Source: a virus
IMG/VR virus record: IMGVR_UViG_3300046332_000284
Coordinates: 1-26,617 of that record
Strand: one strand, 5' to 3'
DNA: 26,617 nucleotides
Positions within the stretch are counted from its first letter, which is position 1. The number at the start of each line of letters is the position of its first letter. This document shows, piece by piece, positions 123-14,074 of the stretch. Made by a program: the position numbers and the translations under genes. Below the pieces are notes generated by a model. It had not been told where the DNA came from. It made no database searches and worked only from the letters and a program-made list of their open reading frames with translations.

Positions 123-737
123 TTATGCTCCATGTCTATCAGAGTAACCAGCACCTTGTTCATTCAATAGCCTAATCTGCTCAGCCCTATAAGCCATAGC
201 TAAAAGTTTTGCATTTTCATCTCCCAACTTGTTAATTGAAAAAGATTTGGTTTTCTGTTTACCATCTAATGTCATCCATGAAGCTTTCCAGTACGTTTGA
301 TCCTTATGTTTGGTATCTAAATAAATACCTGTGATACCTGTAGTATTGTTCTTATACTTTGAAGCATTTCTTGCATTCAGCGCTTTTGAAACTACCCTTA
401 AATTTGATATCAAGTTATTTTGTAAGTTACCATCAATGTGATCAATAATATGATTCTCTGGTACATCTTGTCCGGTACAAAGATACCAAATGATCTTATG
501 TACCTGAAACGTACCATACCTAGTTGAAGAATATACAGAGTACTTGCCTTCTGAAACAGACCCTGCAACCTCGTCTGCATATCTGTTTACTAAGGTTTCT
601 TGGTTGCCGTAGCGTTTATCGGTCTTATGTCTTAAACCAGTTGGACTAGTTTCATCATAATACACCATCTCAGACCAAGGGATACCTTTTAAAGACTTAC
701 CTGAAATTTTATTCATTTTTGAATCATGTGTGCTCAT
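123..737 (-). CDS. HNH homing endonuclease with AP2 domain
   Basis: A 204-residue protein. The centre (about residues 79-123) carries an HNH core: HKIIWYLCTG, then IIDHIDGN and NNLISNLRVV, with the conserved D-H-I-D-G-N and the Asn pair. The C-terminal 75 residues form an AP2-like DNA-binding region (TGITGIYLD, YWKASWMTLDGK, FSINKLG). This order is typical of free-standing phage homing endonucleases. The start overlaps the end of the primase-helicase gene by 14 bases, and the gene sits between helicase and polymerase, a classic homing site. The protein is paralogous to the one at 13487-14074; their C termini (QGAGYSDRHGA and QGAGYTERHGT) are nearly identical. A second Met at codon 8 is possible, but the GAGGGG site favours the first. 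Confidence 0.87.
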   Translation of the reverse strand: MSTHDSKMNKISGKSLKGIPWSEMVYYDETSPTGLRHKTDKRYGNQETLVNRYADEVAGSVSEGKYSVYSSTRYGTFQVHKIIWYLCTGQDVPENHIIDHIDGNLQNNLISNLRVVSKALNARNASKYKNNTTGITGIYLDTKHKDQTYWKASWMTLDGKQKTKSFSINKLGDENAKLLAMAYRAEQIRLLNEQGAGYSDRHGA

Positions 738-2480: not shown

Positions 2481-3482
2481 TTATTCATTTTTAATAAGCC
2501 AAGAATTTGAGATTACTTTCCAAGATAAATCATGTTGAGTATTGCTACGAAAGACAACACCTTCGCGATTACTGCCGTTAAGCAAAGACTTACCTTCTGC
2601 ATACTGTAACAGAGTTTGAATCGTATGATCTTTAATACTTGCGTTTTCATCCAAGATAGGTACATGCTTTAACCCAAGCTTTTCACACGCTGATTTAAGC
2701 TGTACAGGCAAAATGTATTGTCCTGTGTGAGTATTGTACATGTCGTACACGTAAAAGTCAAGCTGTACTTTGTACTGATTACCTTGAATGCCTTCACCAA
2801 TCATTTCACCTTGAATTGCCATACGTACCATAAAATTTCTACGCATGATACCTTCAATATCAAACTTACGAGCTACTTTCCAGAATGAATTTGCTTCGTC
2901 TTCTTTCAGGTCTAAGTTACGTGAACACACATGAAATACACCTTCGTCATCAAGATAGAATGTGCAAGAGGAACCATCAAGTTTTTCTGTGATTGACCAA
3001 GTGTCTTGCTGGTACTCTCCAAATTCTCGTGTAAGATTTTGGATTCTAGGCTGATCAGTCTTCGGTACTAACGCAGGGAAATTACCTCGTGCCATACCAG
3101 CGAGTTGAGCATTCATTGGGCGTTCCCATTTGATGATACCAAGTGCTTCGGTACAATCCACATCTTCAACTTTGATAAATGATTCTGGAATAGGTAGCAA
3201 CAAACCTTGTGAGATTTGCCCACGTAGTTTTACTGTACGTAGTCGCTCACCTTTGATACCTTCGTATTCACGAGGTTCTTTACCTTTGGATAAAAATGGT
3301 GCAAGTTCTGTGGGAACCCAACTGTCAATTTCTAAGTATAAAGCGAGAGAATCAACTGCAAATTCACCCTTCTTTACTACGACTTTCCAACCATCAACTA
3401 CAGCGACTTCAATAGCGTCTGCACCTTCGATTGGTTCAATTGCTGCGATCTTACGAATAGTTGCGAGTTTACGTTCTGTCAT
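2481..3482 (-). CDS. RNA ligase, DRB0094/Rnl5-like
   Basis: A 333-residue nucleotidyltransferase. Residues 1 to about 110 form an N-terminal OB-like domain (IRKIAAIEPIEGADAIE, RLRTVKLRGQISQGL), the hallmark of the Deinococcus DRB0094 (Rnl5) RNA ligase group. The adenylation domain has motif I EKLDG (K167), motif III/IIIa (IQGEMIGEGI, LDFYVYDMY), motif IV REGVVFR (E307, G308) and motif V SWKVIS (K322). The start was placed at the ATG at 3482 because AAGGAG lies seven bases upstream; an in-frame ATG 17 codons earlier lacks support. The gene overlaps the end of the GIY-YIG gene by 14 bases. The likely role is sealing nicked RNA, possibly cleaved host tRNA. Confidence 0.85.
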   Translation of the reverse strand: MTERKLATIRKIAAIEPIEGADAIEVAVVDGWKVVVKKGEFAVDSLALYLEIDSWVPTELAPFLSKGKEPREYEGIKGERLRTVKLRGQISQGLLLPIPESFIKVEDVDCTEALGIIKWERPMNAQLAGMARGNFPALVPKTDQPRIQNLTREFGEYQQDTWSITEKLDGSSCTFYLDDEGVFHVCSRNLDLKEDEANSFWKVARKFDIEGIMRRNFMVRMAIQGEMIGEGIQGNQYKVQLDFYVYDMYNTHTGQYILPVQLKSACEKLGLKHVPILDENASIKDHTIQTLLQYAEGKSLLNGSNREGVVFRSNTQHDLSWKVISNSWLIKNE

Positions 3483-4338
3483 TTGTTTCTCCTTTTTGTT
3501 GAAAATGTAATAATAAATCAGGTAGTAGTTCAACTGGATAGCACTCTGTCCAACCTGATTTTATCAGACTACGTGTAATTGTAGCAGCAATTTTACGGTT
3601 TTTAAACATAGCGTGTAGACTATTTTCAAAACTTTCAGCTTCTTTACCTGTTTTAAAATTAAGAGTAGCTTCTAGTCTAATGGATAAACCAGTGGTTGAT
3701 ATCTGAGAAATTCTCCTGTCAACATTAGAAGTGAATCCTACTTTTAAAAATTTAAAGTTTTCTACTTCCATGCTCATCAAATAAACTTTACTTTCAACGT
3801 CTGTATAACTTTTATTGCAAATTGAACATTTTACAGAACCTCTATTTGCATTACCAATTTGTGTGCGTTTTTCGTGACCACAGCTTAATTTGTAATGTGC
3901 ATATCTATAGTCAATCTCACATCTTCGGATAAATTTGATATTGTTTAATTGTGCAGAATCTTTAAACCTTATTTCTTGACAAATTTTACAAATAAATTCA
4001 CCATTCTTTGCATTTACTAGAGTTATGTCTTGTTCATGCCCACATGATATAAATCTGAATCTTTTATAATTGTTATCTTTATCTGCACTCTCACCAATCA
4101 TCTCAAGACCTTTAAGTGCTACTTCATTAATTTGTAAATCCTTAAAACAAGTGTTGCACCTAAAGGCTTTTGACCTAACATGTCCCGGTTGAATATACTG
4201 TTCATGCCCACATATTAAAAATCTGTAAAGTTTATTTACTTTTGCAACATTGTGGTCAATAAGCAAAAGTCCATTATGCAATGCCTCGGACTCATGTTTA
4301 TCAAACACAGATTGTTTCCTATGAAATATCTCTTTCAT
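3469..4338 (-). CDS. Zinc-finger repeat protein with GIY-YIG nuclease domain
   Basis: A 289-residue protein. Three repeats each contain CGHE followed, after a fixed 18-residue step, by C-x2-C: C43/C61/C64, C99/C117/C120 and C153/C171/C174. The repeat period is 54-56 residues, and the Cys/His pattern suggests zinc binding and DNA recognition. Residues from about 184 form a divergent GIY-YIG nuclease: VYLMSM, KVGFTSNVDRRISQ, then a conserved Glu region (GKEAESFENSLHAMF). This is a probable homing endonuclease inserted between DNA ligase and RNA ligase. It overlaps both neighbours, by 20 and 14 bases. It is more AT-rich and Lys/Asn-rich than the flanking genes, consistent with transfer. Confidence 0.75.
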   Translation of the reverse strand: MKEIFHRKQSVFDKHESEALHNGLLLIDHNVAKVNKLYRFLICGHEQYIQPGHVRSKAFRCNTCFKDLQINEVALKGLEMIGESADKDNNYKRFRFISCGHEQDITLVNAKNGEFICKICQEIRFKDSAQLNNIKFIRRCEIDYRYAHYKLSCGHEKRTQIGNANRGSVKCSICNKSYTDVESKVYLMSMEVENFKFLKVGFTSNVDRRISQISTTGLSIRLEATLNFKTGKEAESFENSLHAMFKNRKIAATITRSLIKSGWTECYPVELLPDLLLHFQQKGETNDRT

Positions 4339-5227
4339 CTCTAAAACCTTTAAAAATAGGGAATCTTAAAGCATCTTTAACTCCTACGGCAAAGTACTTT
4401 ACTTCCACAAACTTACCAATTAATTCTTCCTTGCGTTCCCACCAATATTCTCGTTCTTGCATTTTAAAACCACTACCACAATTGACTATATTGCCGTCTT
4501 CTTGTACTAGAAGCAATGCACCAAGTAGTTCTTGAGGAAATAAACCTTCTTTACTAGAACTTCTACTTGTACGACCAAGTTCATTGATTTCTACTGCATT
4601 CTGATTTTTGTACATTGGCTCATAACCAATACATTTTAATGTAATATCTGAAAACCGTTTGACTTTCTGCAGTTCTGGATTCTTAGTTCCAGATCGACCG
4701 CATTTATACTTAGCATCAGCATCACGAACCATGACGCCTTCTGCACCTTGAGCAAGCATTTCAGCTTCAAAGTCATCAATGCAAGCATCTTCTGTAACAG
4801 GAAAGTGCTGCAATAGCTCTACTCGCAATGGTAAAGCATCTTTAGTATTTAAGTCAACTAAACGAGCATAACGCTCCAACCAAGATTGAGTAGGATGCCA
4901 GCGGTCAAATACCCAAAAAGTAAACTCAGGTTCACCACTCTGACGCATTACGCCAGAAGTACTTTGGTTAAATACATCAGGTGCGTTCTTATCGCCTACA
5001 ATCAATTCACCATCCATACCATCTAGCATTTCCCAATGGTGCTTAACATAAGCTTGAATGCTTTTGTTTGGAATCGGTTTAAGACTGCGTGAGTAAGCTA
5101 CACCACCAAATATAATGCAGCGAATACCGTCAAGTTTTTCTGACATGAAGCGACCAGTTGGTTGCGTCTTTACTTTGGTTTGCTCGATAGCTAATTGTGG
5201 CTTAAAGCCTTCTGGAATTGTCATCAT
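4319..5227 (-). CDS. ATP-dependent DNA ligase
   Basis: A 302-residue ligase that would seal Okazaki-fragment nicks. The adenylation domain has motif I EKLDGIR (nucleotide-accepting K31), motif III DGELIV, motif IIIa FWVFDRW, motif IV EGVMVRD and motif V (LQKVKRF). A C-terminal OB fold follows (GALLLVQEDGNIVNCGSGF, FVEVKYF). The length matches compact phage and bacterial LigD/T7-like ligases. Two ATGs are adjacent at the start; AGGAGC precedes them, and the second has the better spacing. It overlaps the short upstream gene by ATGA and the nuclease gene downstream by 20 bases. Confidence 0.92.
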   Translation of the reverse strand: MMTIPEGFKPQLAIEQTKVKTQPTGRFMSEKLDGIRCIIFGGVAYSRSLKPIPNKSIQAYVKHHWEMLDGMDGELIVGDKNAPDVFNQSTSGVMRQSGEPEFTFWVFDRWHPTQSWLERYARLVDLNTKDALPLRVELLQHFPVTEDACIDDFEAEMLAQGAEGVMVRDADAKYKCGRSGTKNPELQKVKRFSDITLKCIGYEPMYKNQNAVEINELGRTSRSSSKEGLFPQELLGALLLVQEDGNIVNCGSGFKMQEREYWWERKEELIGKFVEVKYFAVGVKDALRFPIFKGFRDERDIS

Positions 5228-8011: not shown

Positions 8012-8280
8012 AGTTTACTCCTTAAAAAAAGGTTGTTTGTGATGTGAGCTTCAATTATAGCATCATCTTGCTCTTCTTGTACAAGCTTATCTGCATTAGC
8101 GTAAATTTCTTCTGAGATTTCTAGCGACCACTCGTCACCTATCAAGTCAGTAATGTCAACGTCAGGATGCTCATATAAGTACACCTTGAGTTCATCCCAA
8201 TTGATATCACGTTCTTCGTCTAACGTGAATTCTACCGTTACCTTAGTACCTGTGTTACCAATTTGTGTTACTAACTTCAT
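8008..8280 (-). CDS. Acidic hypothetical protein, 90 aa
   Basis: Strongly acidic protein (DEERDINWDELKVYLYEHPD, DLIGDEWSLEISEEIYANAD). GGAG lies near the ATG, which overlaps the stop of the HNH gene. The acidity resembles small phage inhibitors or DNA mimics, but nothing else in the sequence supports such a role. Confidence 0.7.
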   Translation of the reverse strand: MKLVTQIGNTGTKVTVEFTLDEERDINWDELKVYLYEHPDVDITDLIGDEWSLEISEEIYANADKLVQEEQDDAIIEAHITNNLFLRSKL

Positions 8281-8738
8281 GTTATCTCCTTTAGGTTGAT
8301 TTTTAAAAGCTTGACGTATTCTTCACGAACAATTGAAAAATATTTCATGTATTTCTTAAGTTTAGACATGTGGTTTTCTTTTGTAGCATTGTACCGTGAT
8401 CTTAAAATGTTAGTAGCGATTCTAACAGACATATCGTTATCCTTTGCATAGTCATGGATTTCTTCATGATGCTTTCTACAAAGAGCTATGATGTTTCTTA
8501 ATTCATCTTTTGTAAATAACCATTTGTAACTTGTATGATGAAGTTCAACATTCGTACAATTACAAAATGTACACTTCTGATAGTTAGACCTCTGTGCTGC
8601 TTTCTTTTTAATTTGTCGCCAATGGTCAGAAACTAGAAACTCTCTATATGTAAAACCATGTTTAGCTAAAACACTATCCCTTCTTATCCAAGTATCAAGA
8701 TAGTTTTCATCGAGTCCCTCTAAGTAATCTTCTTTCAT
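8277..8738 (-). CDS. HNH nuclease
   Basis: A 153-residue protein with a zinc-type HNH fold: C-x2-C (CTFCNC), VELHHTSYKW, then NIIALCRKHHEEIHD. This is the classic C-x2-C ... HH ... C-x2-H-x3-H arrangement. The N terminus (about 35 residues) and the basic C-terminal helix may contact DNA. It is the first gene of the leftward operon behind the promoter at 8922-8949. It could be a homing endonuclease or a phage-defence or packaging HNH; the position away from conserved genes gives no decision. Confidence 0.82.
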   Translation of the reverse strand: MKEDYLEGLDENYLDTWIRRDSVLAKHGFTYREFLVSDHWRQIKKKAAQRSNYQKCTFCNCTNVELHHTSYKWLFTKDELRNIIALCRKHHEEIHDYAKDNDMSVRIATNILRSRYNATKENHMSKLKKYMKYFSIVREEYVKLLKINLKEIT

Positions 8739-9048: not shown

Positions 9049-9492
9049 ATGATCTTGAAACCAGAATTTGCTTCTATGGTAGACCGCTTGGGGTTTGAGG
9101 ACGGTGAACTAGCAATTGCAGAAATTGTGTGGGAACGCTGCGAGAAAGCAATGCAAGGTAAGCCTTTGCAAGAGTCCGTGCTCATGAGCAGTAAGCTGCA
9201 GCAGTTTTTGACATCCTATGCTCATACGCACCGTGCTGTGTCGTTTACCACGGAAGAACTGCAAGCCTTGACGCAAGGTCTTGCTGAGGTTCTGAGTGCA
9301 GATGAAGATGCATTGCAATTTCTAAAGAGCCGCATTGACCAACTGTGGCACAAGAGCAACCCTGATGATAAAGACAGTGAGCCTTATTTCGTCATGATGA
9401 ACTACTACCGCAATAAGCAACGTACTTTGAAGCGTCAACACAAAGTACTTGCAGGTATTCAACACAAACTTAAACAAGCTAGGAAACTGTAA
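9049..9492 (+). CDS. Hypothetical protein, 147 aa
   Basis: Helical protein starting MILKPEFASMVDRLGFEDGE and ending with a basic helix (KQRTLKRQHKVLAGIQHKLK). The ATG at 9049 follows GAAAGGAA at good distance; an in-frame GTG at 9004 lies inside the promoter -10 and was discarded. It is the first gene of the rightward operon, so expressed early. Unrecognised. Confidence 0.75.
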   Translation: MILKPEFASMVDRLGFEDGELAIAEIVWERCEKAMQGKPLQESVLMSSKLQQFLTSYAHTHRAVSFTTEELQALTQGLAEVLSADEDALQFLKSRIDQLWHKSNPDDKDSEPYFVMMNYYRNKQRTLKRQHKVLAGIQHKLKQARKL

Positions 9493-9839
9493 TGACACGC
9501 AAACGCTATGAAATAATCGCTACAGCTTTCGATAAGAAAGGTCGTGTGCTAGGTACTGGAGTTAATGACTATAACCGTAGTCATCCACTTATGAAGCACT
9601 TTGCTATACAAGCTGGAGAGTCAGAACAAAAAGATAAAATTCACGCTGAACTTTCTGCTGTACTTGCATCAGGTCGCAAAAATATTCATAGCGTTTTCGT
9701 TCAACGGTTTCACAATGATGGTACAATGGCTACAGCTAAACCGTGCATGACTTGTCAAGCTATGCTTAAAGGCTTTGGTGTTAAAGTTGTGCGTTATACA
9801 TCTGAAGAAGGTGTAAAGGAGTATGAAATAAATGGCTAA
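9492..9839 (+). CDS. Cytidine/deoxycytidylate deaminase-like protein
   Basis: A 115-residue protein with the two deaminase zinc motifs: IHAELSAVLASG (H-A-E) and KPCMTCQAML (P-C-x2-C). It is shorter than standard dCMP deaminases. It would deaminate a cytosine nucleotide; dCMP to dUMP is most likely, given ThyX downstream. The ATG overlaps the previous stop by one base, and the gene runs eight bases into the AP2 gene. A second deaminase follows at 10292. A role in modified-base metabolism or RNA editing cannot be excluded. Confidence 0.78.
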   Translation: MTRKRYEIIATAFDKKGRVLGTGVNDYNRSHPLMKHFAIQAGESEQKDKIHAELSAVLASGRKNIHSVFVQRFHNDGTMATAKPCMTCQAMLKGFGVKVVRYTSEEGVKEYEING

Positions 9840-10290
9840 AAGTCACGGAATGACAAAAACTAAAATATATAATTCTTGGAGAGGAATGAAAGAACGATGC
9901 GATAATCCTAACAACAAAAGGTATTCTTCGTATGGTGCTAGAGGTATTACTTATAATACTAATTGGATTACATTTGATGGTTTCTATAGTGATATGGGGG
10001 ATTCATACATTGAAGGTTTTGAATTAGACCGAATCGATGTAAACGGTAATTACTGTAAAGAAAATTGTAGGTGGGTTACTGAATCAGAACAAGCTTATAA
10101 TCAAAGAAAAAGAACTGATAATAAATCTGGAAAAACAGGCGTAGGCTATCATAAGAAAAATAAAAAGTGGACAGCTTTTATTCGTCTGAACGATAAACAG
10201 ATATATTTAGGTTCATTTGAAACTTTTGAAGAAGCTGTAAAAACGAGAGAAGAGGCAGAACTTAAATACTATGGATACTTGAGAGGATAA
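9832..10290 (+). CDS. Homing-endonuclease-like protein with AP2 domain
   Basis: A 152-residue protein. The N-terminal part (KIYNSWRGMKERCDNPNNKR, SSYGARGITYNTNW, LDRIDVNGNYCKENCRWVT) is a family seen as free-standing phage homing endonucleases. The C-terminal part (TGVGYHKKNKKWTAFIRLND ... YLGSFETFEEAVKTREEAE) is an AP2 DNA-binding domain. It lies exactly between two deaminase genes, overlapping the first by eight bases and ending two bases before the second. It is Lys/Asn-rich and more AT-rich than its neighbours, consistent with insertion. Confidence 0.75.
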   Translation: MAKSHGMTKTKIYNSWRGMKERCDNPNNKRYSSYGARGITYNTNWITFDGFYSDMGDSYIEGFELDRIDVNGNYCKENCRWVTESEQAYNQRKRTDNKSGKTGVGYHKKNKKWTAFIRLNDKQIYLGSFETFEEAVKTREEAELKYYGYLRG

Positions 10291-10291
10291 A

Positions 10292-10732
10292 ATGGCTACA
10301 ACACAAGAAACCGATGAAATGTATATGGGTGTTGCAATTTTACATTCTAGACTATCAAAAGCAAAAAGAGCACAAGTTGGTGCTTGTCTAGTGACTGAGA
10401 ATGGTACAATCCTTGGTGGTGTAAATGGTACACCTCGTGGAATGAGCAACGAGTGTGAAAATGTTCTATTTGATGGTGCGGCTCGTACTCTTGTAACAAA
10501 ACCAGACGTGATTCACGCTGAATTGCAGACAATTTTAAAGGCTGCTCGTGAAGGTGTAAGCTGTATTGGTGCTACAGTTTATGTTACACTATCACCTTGT
10601 ATCCAATGCAGTGCTATGCTGATTCAAGCTGGTGTTAAACGTGTTGTATATCTGCAACAGTACAGAGATGATTCTGGTGTAAAGCTACTGCAGGAGTCAA
10701 ATGTAGTGGTACAATTGTACGATCAACTTTAA
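10292..10732 (+). CDS. Deoxycytidylate deaminase-like protein
   Basis: A 146-residue protein of the ComEB/dCMP deaminase type: VIHAELQTIL (catalytic H-A-E) and SPCIQCSAMLIQAGVKRVVY (P-C-x2-C zinc ligands), with a C-terminal strand (SNVVVQLY). It would convert dCMP to dUMP, feeding ThyX at 14084. It is fuller than the deaminase at 9492 and has a better-conserved C-terminal half. The ATG lies two bases after the AP2 gene's stop, with GAGAGG upstream. Confidence 0.82.
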   Translation: MATTQETDEMYMGVAILHSRLSKAKRAQVGACLVTENGTILGGVNGTPRGMSNECENVLFDGAARTLVTKPDVIHAELQTILKAAREGVSCIGATVYVTLSPCIQCSAMLIQAGVKRVVYLQQYRDDSGVKLLQESNVVVQLYDQL

Positions 10733-11354: not shown

Positions 11355-11762
11355 ATGAATAAAAATAAACCAACTTTATATTTGATCCGTGGTGTAGCAG
11401 GTGCAGGCAAATCTACATTTGCTTGGCAATTACTTCGTGGTCGTTTAGTAGATAGAGTATTTGAAGCTGATGAGTATTTTGTACAAAATGGTGTATATCA
11501 GTTTGATCCTACTTTACTTGAACAAGCGCATCAACAATGCAAGCGTAATACTTGGCTGGCTTTGTATGAAGGTATGTCAGTAGCTGTGTCAAATACATCC
11601 TGTGCAGAGTGGGAAGTAGAGAGTTACCAGACGATTGCACGAGAGACTGAAGCTAACTTTGTGAGCATTATCGTTGAGAATAGAAATAATACTAAAAACA
11701 TTCATGGTTGTCCTGATGCTAAGGTCGAGCAGATGAAACAAAAGTTCAGTGTTAAATTGTAA
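11355..11762 (+). CDS. P-loop kinase, polynucleotide-kinase-like (AAA_33)
   Basis: A 135-residue P-loop protein. Walker A is GVAGAGKS at residues 13-20. It is followed by EADEYF (an Asp that in this family activates the acceptor hydroxyl), YQFDPTLLEQAHQQCK, and VAVSNTSCAEWEVESYQTIA with a lid-like helix. The layout matches the 5'-kinase domain of T4 Pnk-like proteins without a phosphatase domain. It probably phosphorylates 5'-OH ends. Two genes later come an RNA ligase and a metallophosphoesterase, which together would cover all the steps of RNA end healing and sealing. It could instead be a small-molecule kinase. Confidence 0.75.
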   Translation: MNKNKPTLYLIRGVAGAGKSTFAWQLLRGRLVDRVFEADEYFVQNGVYQFDPTLLEQAHQQCKRNTWLALYEGMSVAVSNTSCAEWEVESYQTIARETEANFVSIIVENRNNTKNIHGCPDAKVEQMKQKFSVKL

Positions 11763-11785
11763 AATCATAAAAGTAAAGGAATAAA

Positions 11786-12070
11786 ATGCTTGAATTAATT
11801 GTTTATATGGCTGGTGTGATTATCATGATGATTGCATTTGCCGTTCGCACCTCAAATGTAGATATTGATTCTGCAGTTATACTTTCAATATTTTGGCCAT
11901 TATCAATATTGGCTATGATACTCTTAAAAAGTTTATGGACTTTTAATTGGGATATGGATATTGTCGGGGTTAATAAATGGTTTGGTTATAGAAAACCAAC
12001 TAATCCTGAGGTGAAAGGTTTCGCTGTTATTATATTCAAACTAGAGTTTCAATTATGGAAAAGGAAATAA
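11786..12070 (+). CDS. Membrane protein, 94 aa, two predicted helices
   Basis: Two hydrophobic segments, at about residues 3-19 (LIVYMAGVIIMMIAF) and 31-48 (AVILSIFWPLSILAMILL), followed by a Trp-rich, basic C-terminal tail. AAAGGAA precedes the ATG. It sits between the kinase and the RNA ligase; nothing links it to their chemistry. A holin-like role is possible by size but not supported by position. Confidence 0.65.
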   Translation: MLELIVYMAGVIIMMIAFAVRTSNVDIDSAVILSIFWPLSILAMILLKSLWTFNWDMDIVGVNKWFGYRKPTNPEVKGFAVIIFKLEFQLWKRK

Positions 12071-12071
12071 A

Positions 12072-12950
12072 ATGCTATTGACATATGATCAACAAATGAA
12101 TTTAGTAAATCGTGGTTTAGCTACGATGAAAAACGATGGAAAGACCACAACGTTTAAATACCATCGTAAAGCTATGTATGATTATCTCTGGTATAAAATT
12201 CCGGAACTACTGGAATGCAGAGGACATGTTTATTGCAATACTACGAAAGAACTTGTGCAAGCTGCTCCACGTAAAAGCTTTAATTACCTTGAGCGAAATT
12301 ACTGGAGTACTATGCCTATTGATACTCCAGTTGAAATGTACAAGAAGATCAATGGTTATATGGCTTGCGCTACACTGCACAATAAAAAATTGATTGTAAG
12401 TACTACAGGTACTACAACAAGTGAATACGCTCAGTGGGCTAAAGAACTGCTGTTGAGCACTTATAGAAACTATGATATGCTTTTGGACGATAAGACTACT
12501 ACGCTTTTTGAAGTAATACTACCACAAGACCCTCACATTGTGCATGAGCGCCAAGGTTTGCATCTACTCGGTGTACGTGAGAAAGATACAGGAGATTTTT
12601 ATCCTATGGGTGCTGGTGCTCGTTGCACTCTTGAACAAGCACTGGAAATCGCAAAGCACGACCGTGGTGAAGGTTTTATGATGTATCCTATGCTACCTGA
12701 TGGTTCATACGATTACAACAACTGCTGTAAACTAAAGACTCCTTACTACATTGGTAAAAAGAAATTGATGCGTATGACAGCGAAGAATGTTGAAATCATG
12801 TATAAAAATGGCTTTGAAACTGCAATTACACTGCCAAATACGTGGTATGATGCACCACGTATGATCGTAAGTACTGTGCCAAAAGACACATGGTTAGCTA
12901 TGAACGATCAACAACGCAGGGTAATTCTTGAAGATTTTATAGGAGTTTAA
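12072..12950 (+). CDS. RNA ligase, T4 Rnl1-like
   Basis: A 292-residue protein with the ordered motifs of Rnl1-type RNA ligases. Upstream of motif I is ECRGHVYCNTTKELVQAAPR followed by SFNYLE. Motif I is KINGYM (K92, with Asn in the place of the usual Asp). Motif III is LFEVILPQDPHIV (E147), motif IV EGFMMY (E200) and motif V KLKTPYY (K220, K222). It would join RNA 5'-phosphate and 3'-OH ends, as in tRNA repair. Unlike T4 Rnl1 (374 aa) it is short, so the C-terminal tRNA-specificity domain may be reduced. GGAAAT lies before the ATG; the phosphoesterase gene starts two bases after the stop. Confidence 0.8.
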   Translation: MLLTYDQQMNLVNRGLATMKNDGKTTTFKYHRKAMYDYLWYKIPELLECRGHVYCNTTKELVQAAPRKSFNYLERNYWSTMPIDTPVEMYKKINGYMACATLHNKKLIVSTTGTTTSEYAQWAKELLLSTYRNYDMLLDDKTTTLFEVILPQDPHIVHERQGLHLLGVREKDTGDFYPMGAGARCTLEQALEIAKHDRGEGFMMYPMLPDGSYDYNNCCKLKTPYYIGKKKLMRMTAKNVEIMYKNGFETAITLPNTWYDAPRMIVSTVPKDTWLAMNDQQRRVILEDFIGV

Positions 12951-12951
12951 T

Positions 12952-13521
12952 ATGAAAGTATTCACAAGTGATTTACATGAAAGTCATCTAAAAATAACAG
13001 GCTATACAAATCGAGGTAAAGATACTACTCAAGAAAACCACACAGAATGGTTAATTGATGTGTGGAATAAAAACGTAACACCTGCAGATGTTTGCTACAG
13101 TCTTGGTGATTATTCATTTGCTAAAAAGTACGATGATATTGCAAAGTTTACAGAGCGTTTAAACGGTAATAAAATTCTTATTAAGGGTAATCATGACAAG
13201 CGTGAACATCTGAATCAACTTGTAAAAGATCAACTGATTTCCGCATGGTATGATTATAAAGAAATCAAGATCGGTGAAACATCTGTTTGTTTGTTTCATT
13301 TTCCTGTGAAATTCTGGCATAAACAAGCACATGGTAGTGTTCATCTACATGGTCATCTACACGGTGCAAATTCAGGTTTAGATGGAAAAGTACTTGACGT
13401 GGGTATTGATTCTGCATATAATCTTTATGGACAGCATAGATTCTTTACTGAAGAAGATATTTTAAATTACATGAAAGATAAAAACAATGTTGAAAGTTAC
13501 CACGCAAAAAGAACTACCTAA
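12952..13521 (+). CDS. Calcineurin-like metallophosphoesterase
   Basis: A 189-residue protein with all metal-binding motifs of the family: SDLH (D7, H9), LGDYSF (D53), KGNHDKR (N80, H81), H116 (LFHFP) and GHLHG (134-138). This compact type is common in phages and could remove phosphates from RNA or DNA ends. In bacterial Pnkp a kinase, this type of phosphatase and a ligase are fused; here all three occur as neighbouring genes. AGGAG precedes the ATG. The last 35 bases overlap an HNH endonuclease gene, and the C terminus (KNNVESYHAKRTT) may have been reshaped by that insertion. Confidence 0.85.
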   Translation: MKVFTSDLHESHLKITGYTNRGKDTTQENHTEWLIDVWNKNVTPADVCYSLGDYSFAKKYDDIAKFTERLNGNKILIKGNHDKREHLNQLVKDQLISAWYDYKEIKIGETSVCLFHFPVKFWHKQAHGSVHLHGHLHGANSGLDGKVLDVGIDSAYNLYGQHRFFTEEDILNYMKDKNNVESYHAKRTT

Positions 13522-14074
13522 TTTCAACTCTATATTTAAAGTTGATAAAACAAGTCCATCAAACCTGAGTTGGAATATTGAAATCAGGTGTGGAATATAT
13601 AATAATGTGTTAAAATGTTGGATCGGTAAACACTGTGATCATTTATCTAAAACAACAGGTAGGTACAGAGTTGAGTTCAAGCAAAAATCCTATGAAGTCT
13701 CAAGAATTGTATTTTGCATACACACTGGAAAAGATTATTTTGATAAGTCTTTCATCGTTGATCATATTGATGGTAACACATTGAACAATAATGTTGAAAA
13801 TTTAAGATCGGTTACAGCTAGCGGTAATATGCAAAATACTGCAAAGAGAAAGACTACAGAAAATACGGGTGTATGTTTGCATACATCTAATAAAGATTTT
13901 TCGTACTGGAGGGCAAGATGGACCGATTTATCTGGGAAACAACGTGAAAAACTGTTCTCGATTAATAAACTAGGGTTTGACATAGCAAAAGAATGTGCTA
14001 TACTCTATAGACAACAAATGATTGAAGAATTAAACAAACAAGGTGCTGGTTATACTGAACGGCACGGAACATAA
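13487..14074 (+). CDS. HNH homing endonuclease with AP2 domain
   Basis: A 195-residue protein. The HNH core is YEVSRIVFCIHTGKDY, then FIVDHIDGNTLNNNVENLRS, followed by an AP2-like domain (NTGVCLHTSNKDFSYWRARW, FSINKLGFD). It is paralogous to the protein at 123-737, which it matches in domain order and in the closing QGAGY[ST][DE]RHG[AT]. It starts inside the phosphoesterase gene (35-base overlap) and ends nine bases before thyX, a frequent homing target. The ribosome-binding site is weak, suggesting coupled, low translation. Confidence 0.85.
   Translation: MLKVTTQKELPNFNSIFKVDKTSPSNLSWNIEIRCGIYNNVLKCWIGKHCDHLSKTTGRYRVEFKQKSYEVSRIVFCIHTGKDYFDKSFIVDHIDGNTLNNNVENLRSVTASGNMQNTAKRKTTENTGVCLHTSNKDFSYWRARWTDLSGKQREKLFSINKLGFDIAKECAILYRQQMIEELNKQGAGYTERHGT

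Follow-up and report, generated by a model that had tools for sequence, protein, structure and literature searches.

We analysed a stretch of bacteriophage DNA of 26,617 nucleotides (IMG/VR virus record IMGVR_UViG_3300046332_000284, positions 1 to 26,617; hereafter the window) in which genes for a P-loop kinase, an RNA ligase and a calcineurin-type metallophosphoesterase (MPE) lie close together on one strand, with a small membrane-protein open reading frame (ORF) between the first two (Table 1). A sequence-only reading of this DNA had recognised the three enzymes; all were found where it had placed them, and their active sites were complete. The gaps measured 23 base pairs (bp) between the kinase and the membrane ORF and a single bp at each of the two following junctions, and this tight spacing suggests co-transcription. 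The closest sequenced relative found for the 26.6-kb window was Limnohabitans phage DC31. In comparisons with close relatives the ratio of nonsynonymous to synonymous substitution rates (dN/dS) was 0.12-0.29 for kinase, ligase and MPE alike, indicating purifying selection. The membrane ORF was considered as a fourth member of the group and rejected, being restricted among the relatives to a few close ones (loci L029, L018/L156 and L009/L068/L150).

Table 1. Genes of the repair group and further genes in the window, with lengths in amino acids (aa).
Feature	Position	Strand	Basis
P-loop kinase, 5'-polynucleotide-kinase-like, 135 aa	11355-11762	+	ORF list, AAA_33, PHROG 2071
Small membrane-protein ORF, 94 aa	11786-12070	+	Few close relatives; no Pfam match
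RNA ligase, T4 Rnl1 family, ATP-dependent, 292 aa	12072-12950	+	PHROG 562, BLASTP, fold
Calcineurin-type metallophosphoesterase (MPE), 189 aa	12952-13521	+	PHROG 547, motifs, fold
dCMP-deaminase-family gene, first	9492-9839	+	PHROG 174
dCMP-deaminase-family gene, second	10292-10732	+	PHROG 174
AP2/HNH-type endonuclease-like gene	123-737	-	
AP2/HNH-type endonuclease-like gene	8277-8738	-	
AP2/HNH-type endonuclease-like gene	9832-10290	+	
AP2/HNH-type endonuclease-like gene	13487-14074	+	
Second RNA ligase	2481-3533	-	PHROG 968, 3.7e-91
ATP-dependent DNA ligase	4319-5227	-	

Searched against Pfam by itself, the window ligase had no match at E<=1, and the family was assigned via profiles and relatives. 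The ligase matched PHROG 562 'RNA ligase' (2.3e-39) and T4 RnlA by BLASTP (8e-11) and had a PDB profile hit at 2.5e-14, and a related ligase from phage PAK_P2 exceeded the PF09511 cut-off. All motifs of the T4 Rnl1 family were present, namely the Lys nucleophile K92, motif III (E147), motif IV (E200-G201) and motif V (K220/K222), and K92, E147, E200, K220 and K222 were invariant among 57 diverse phage sequences. The AlphaFold model (predicted local distance difference test score, pLDDT, 95.6) had T4 Rnl1 as its top PDB fold (2c5u, E 2.7e-13), followed by fungal Trl1 tRNA ligases. By sequence and predicted fold, the ligase is a member of the T4 Rnl1 family (PF09511/TIGR02308). It differs from T4 Rnl1 in its shorter C-terminal helical part (292 versus 374 aa in total), with about 70 helical residues beyond motif V.

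The kinase matched Pfam AAA_33 (2.5e-7) and PHROG 2071 (1.7e-31). In profile-profile comparisons it aligned with the kinase domain of T4 Pnk (hhalign 99.2%, E 1.6e-19) and with that of bacterial Pnkp (hhalign 97.2%, 3e-11), and the PDB relatives ranked best for its profile included Pnkp1 and T4 Pnk. Judged from these profiles, its closest relative is the T4 Pnk kinase domain. G16, G18, K19 and D39 were invariant in an alignment of 50 diverse phage sequences. The HAD 3'-phosphatase half of T4 Pnk is missing from the window kinase, the 135-aa ORF covering the kinase domain alone.

The MPE matched PHROG 547 phosphoesterase (3.3e-43) and kept all the calcineurin-like metal-site motifs (DxH, GD, GNH, H and GHxH), with D7, H9, D53, N80, H81, H116, H135 and H137 invariant in 61 diverse phage sequences; its relatives exceeded the PF12850 cut-off. 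The AlphaFold model (pLDDT 96.1) was closest in fold to 1xm7 (Aquifex aq_1665), then to YfcE and an archaeal phosphodiesterase.

Linkage of the three genes was measured in a ligase-anchored set, comprising 58 viral contigs chosen by the ligase alone and examined over flanks of +/-10 kb. Of these 58 loci, 54 had the kinase nearby and 53 the MPE; the complete trio was present in 50, with a median span of 2.5 kb. Of the five loci without a nearby MPE, one had a full MPE elsewhere on the contig, one had a piece of an MPE at the contig end and three were fragments of 5.5-13 kb. When ligases were grouped into lineages at 50% identity, the three genes lay within 5 kb in 11 of 16 lineages. Five arrangements of kinase (K), ligase (L) and MPE (M) occurred, K-L-M, M-L-K, L-K-M, M-K-L and M-K divergent from L, the last in a Vequintavirus relative. 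The sequence-only reading had suggested conservation of the gene order as a check and had named unlinked genes in close relatives as grounds for giving it up; the linkage held throughout most of the ligase-anchored set, whereas the order did not. That linkage is kept despite rearrangement argues for selection on linkage. Among 226 loci the commonest neighbour families were MPE (170), kinase (166) and ligase (148), with dCMP deaminase next (76), totals which take in loci fetched with the kinase and the MPE, so that the ligase-anchored set is the fair measure. No ORF fusing any two of the three domains was found among the first 226 loci. The clustering of kinase, ligase and MPE is not due to chance. 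About 600 sequenced phage records matched the kinase and about 600 the ligase, with the same host profile, and the trio seems to stay together in hundreds of further phages.

The distribution of the MPE was compared with that of the T4 3'-phosphatase, tracked as PF25109 (HAD_PNKP) scoring over the cut-off. PF25109 was found in 11 of 11 control phages with a T4-type Pnk. Of 41 distinct records carrying a trio-type ligase, none reached the cut-off, and one gave a weak match. It was likewise not found in the complete relative DC31 (W01), the window itself being a genome fragment. The MPE was present in 55 of 58 ligase-anchored records versus 7 of 49 T4-Pnk-type records (those seven at 1e-14 to 1e-38), and these figures are counts and not probabilities because kin phages are over-represented on both sides. 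An apparent counter-example, PAK_P2 gp074 (L237 25125-26075), which is annotated as '3'-phosphatase, 5'-polynucleotide kinase', was examined and rejected: it had no Pfam match, and the PAK_P2 genome lacks PF25109. The annotation is likely a propagated misannotation.

The partners of the MPE were also exchanged in some phages. The MPE-anchored search recovered a lineage of 17 loci with ligase and MPE in which the trio-type kinase was mostly absent. A different P-loop kinase was nearby in 13 of these loci, one member of this swapped-in group matching bacterial Pnkp (TIGR04075) at 1.2e-8, and two further loci had an AAA_33 kinase at another place in their records. On the strength of these matches, the kinase of this lineage is non-orthologously displaced by another Pnk-like kinase. 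In kinase-anchored loci, MPE and kinase adjoined, some with overlaps of 1-4 bp, beside other RNA ligases that were either of the longer T4 RnlA type (TIGR02308) or of the PF09414 type. What the loci have in common is a 5'-kinase together with an MPE and an RNA ligase.

We propose that the trio forms a distributed heal-and-seal module, that is, RNA repair of the T4 Pnk and Rnl1 type in which the HAD 3'-phosphatase is replaced by an unrelated MPE and the activities reside on separate polypeptides. We give this reading a probability of about 0.68. The MPE, as the predicted 3'-end healing enzyme, would clear the 2',3'-cyclic phosphate or 3'-phosphate from the 5' fragment of a cleaved RNA. The kinase, as a homologue of the kinase domain of T4 Pnk, would place a phosphate on the 5'-OH of the 3' fragment, and the ligase, given its family, fold and complete nucleotidyltransferase motifs, would use ATP to join the resulting 3'-OH and 5'-phosphate ends. 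Many host defences cleave tRNAs, and Rnl-type ligases are unable to join the ends so produced. The likely role of such a module would be to undo attack by host ribotoxins or anticodon nucleases during infection, and by analogy with T4, tRNAs cut by anticodon nucleases are a plausible substrate.

Several observations weigh against this proposal. Position F42 of the kinase stands where T4 Pnk has R38, a residue invariant in 11 T4-type Pnk enzymes. The full C-terminal helical domain of T4 Rnl1 is tied to tRNA preference, and since most of that domain is absent from the window ligase, such a preference is not implied. The nearest solved relative of the MPE, 1xm7, is a protein of unknown function. 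In 28 of 80 MPE-anchored loci no kinase or ligase of these families stood beside the MPE, and a PF09414 ligase was found in only 6 of 19 tested records that had an MPE without the trio kinase or ligase. Records L060 and L136 carried ligase and MPE without a recognisable kinase. The complementarity with the HAD phosphatase is also incomplete, as the seven T4-Pnk-type phages with an MPE demonstrate, and the uneven sampling of kin phages bears on it too. A weak separate HAD_PNKP-like domain besides the trio was seen in the record G011 (contig of L052, 31344-31835), which is possibly a phage with both kinds of phosphatase.

The sequence-only reading had described the group as a dismantled bacterial Pnkp. 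For comparison, 53 bacterial Pnkps were recovered from genome contigs by a peptide-motif scan, and their domains were compared with the window proteins by local hhalign. A true split, in which the domains of one ancestral Pnkp are now carried on three genes, would fit the same three predicted activities and superfamilies as well as the homology of the kinase to the Pnkp kinase domain. The ligase, on the other hand, reached only 0.2% with the Pnkp ligase domain and matches T4 Rnl1 by sequence and closest fold, while the MPE belongs to another subfamily than the Pnkp phosphatase, the match being unconvincing at 29.6% over 94 columns around the common GD/GNHD motifs; the want of a convincing profile match to that phosphatase also weighs against the proposed module. 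We regard descent from a single Pnkp as already largely refuted and barely credible. Of the heal-and-seal set that had been presented as a version of Pnkp, the three separate, linked genes with the parts of the pathway stand and the Pnkp phosphatase and ligase families fall. As neither MPE nor ligase has a Pnkp family match, a T4 Pnk/Rnl1 pathway with its phosphatase exchanged is the better description.

The MPE might instead be a neighbour with another job, such as breaking down a defence signal that is a nucleotide or cyclic nucleotide, or the trimming of DNA ends, with kinase and ligase as the repair pair and 3'-healing left to the host or to a second phage enzyme. This would agree with the occurrence of the MPE family without kinase and ligase and in some T4-type-Pnk phages, with the unknown or broad specificity of its nearest solved relatives, and with the nucleotide-metabolism genes for dCMP deaminase and ThyX that adjoin as well. 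We nevertheless find it unlikely, because the MPE is a top neighbour family, its linkage survives rearrangement, it is nearly complementary to the HAD phosphatase and its pairing with the kinase persists where the ligase family differs; otherwise, the tested ligase-family records would have no recognised T4-type 3'-phosphatase. T4 RnlA acts in tail-fibre attachment too, and PHROG 562 is named 'RNA ligase and tail fiber protein attachment catalyst'. A ligase used mainly for that purpose or for other RNA processing, combined with a kinase acting on a small molecule and a linkage that reflects only shared early-gene regulation, would fit this name, the loss of the T4 R38 and the breadth of the AAA_33 family. 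It is difficult to reconcile with the invariance of all nucleotidyltransferase motifs of the ligase, with the strong profile-profile match of the kinase to T4 Pnk, with the lineage that replaces its kinase by another Pnk-like kinase instead of losing it, and with neighbours that are nucleotide-metabolism genes and not tail genes. We consider this explanation very improbable.

Compared with known systems, the proposed module most resembles T4 Pnk (PseT) and Rnl1 (RnlA), to which kinase and ligase are respectively homologous, and in both T4 and the window the kinase/ligase pair is linked and close to dCMP deaminase. It differs in having a separate MPE in place of the HAD half of Pnk. Bacterial Pnkp (TIGR04075; Pnkp-Hen1) likewise brings together the functions of a kinase, a phosphatase of the MPE superfamily and an ATP-dependent ligase, in a single polypeptide as opposed to three ORFs. 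In the Pnkp1-Rnl-Hen1 complex (PMC4411300) healing and sealing are split between polypeptides as well, whereas the Pnkp1 kinase is fused to a phosphatase of T4 Pnk-like fold and in the window the kinase and the MPE-type phosphatase are separate. Passages of a 2025 paper on Pakpunavirus Adele (PMC12846349) propose that a kinase and two RNA ligases repair tRNA, and describe the Adele kinase as lacking a 3'-phosphatase domain. The linked MPE is not named as the 3'-healing enzyme in these passages, and an earlier RNA-repair survey may mention it; the linked MPE is the candidate for filling this phosphatase gap. A survey of RNA repair in jumbo phages (PMC7824862) covers jumbo phages, whereas the MPE variant described here occurs commonly in phages that mostly measure 75-140 kb, and the present analysis quantifies both linkage and complementarity.

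On balance we lean towards the view that the MPE family is a class of RNA 3'-end healing enzymes not assigned before, and that it supplies the phosphatase missing from a widespread phage RNA-repair module. It would then be a non-homologous substitute for the HAD phosphatase and distinct from the MPE of Pnkp. A concrete linked candidate turns the phosphatase gap of phages lacking the T4 phosphatase into a question that can be tested with three small proteins, and one clear biochemical prediction results, for the MPE. The common phage annotation 'phosphoesterase' thereby gains a possible function.

Further genes in the window and around the trio in other phages were recorded. The second RNA ligase of the window lies close to a gene for an ATP-dependent DNA ligase. 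A pair of RNA ligases is likewise found in Adele and in PAK_P2. Of the two dCMP-deaminase-family genes the first is shorter and more diverged. The endonuclease-like gene downstream shares the last 35 bp of the MPE gene and stands between the repair group and ThyX. Near the trio, 38 loci encoded a RelA/SpoT-like HD-domain protein (HD_4; for example L003 4406-4909, L042 8754-9194, and the L110 and L140 loci), the gene adjoining the MPE or separating MPE and ligase in several of them. Its product is possibly a hydrolase of (p)ppGpp or of another nucleotide.
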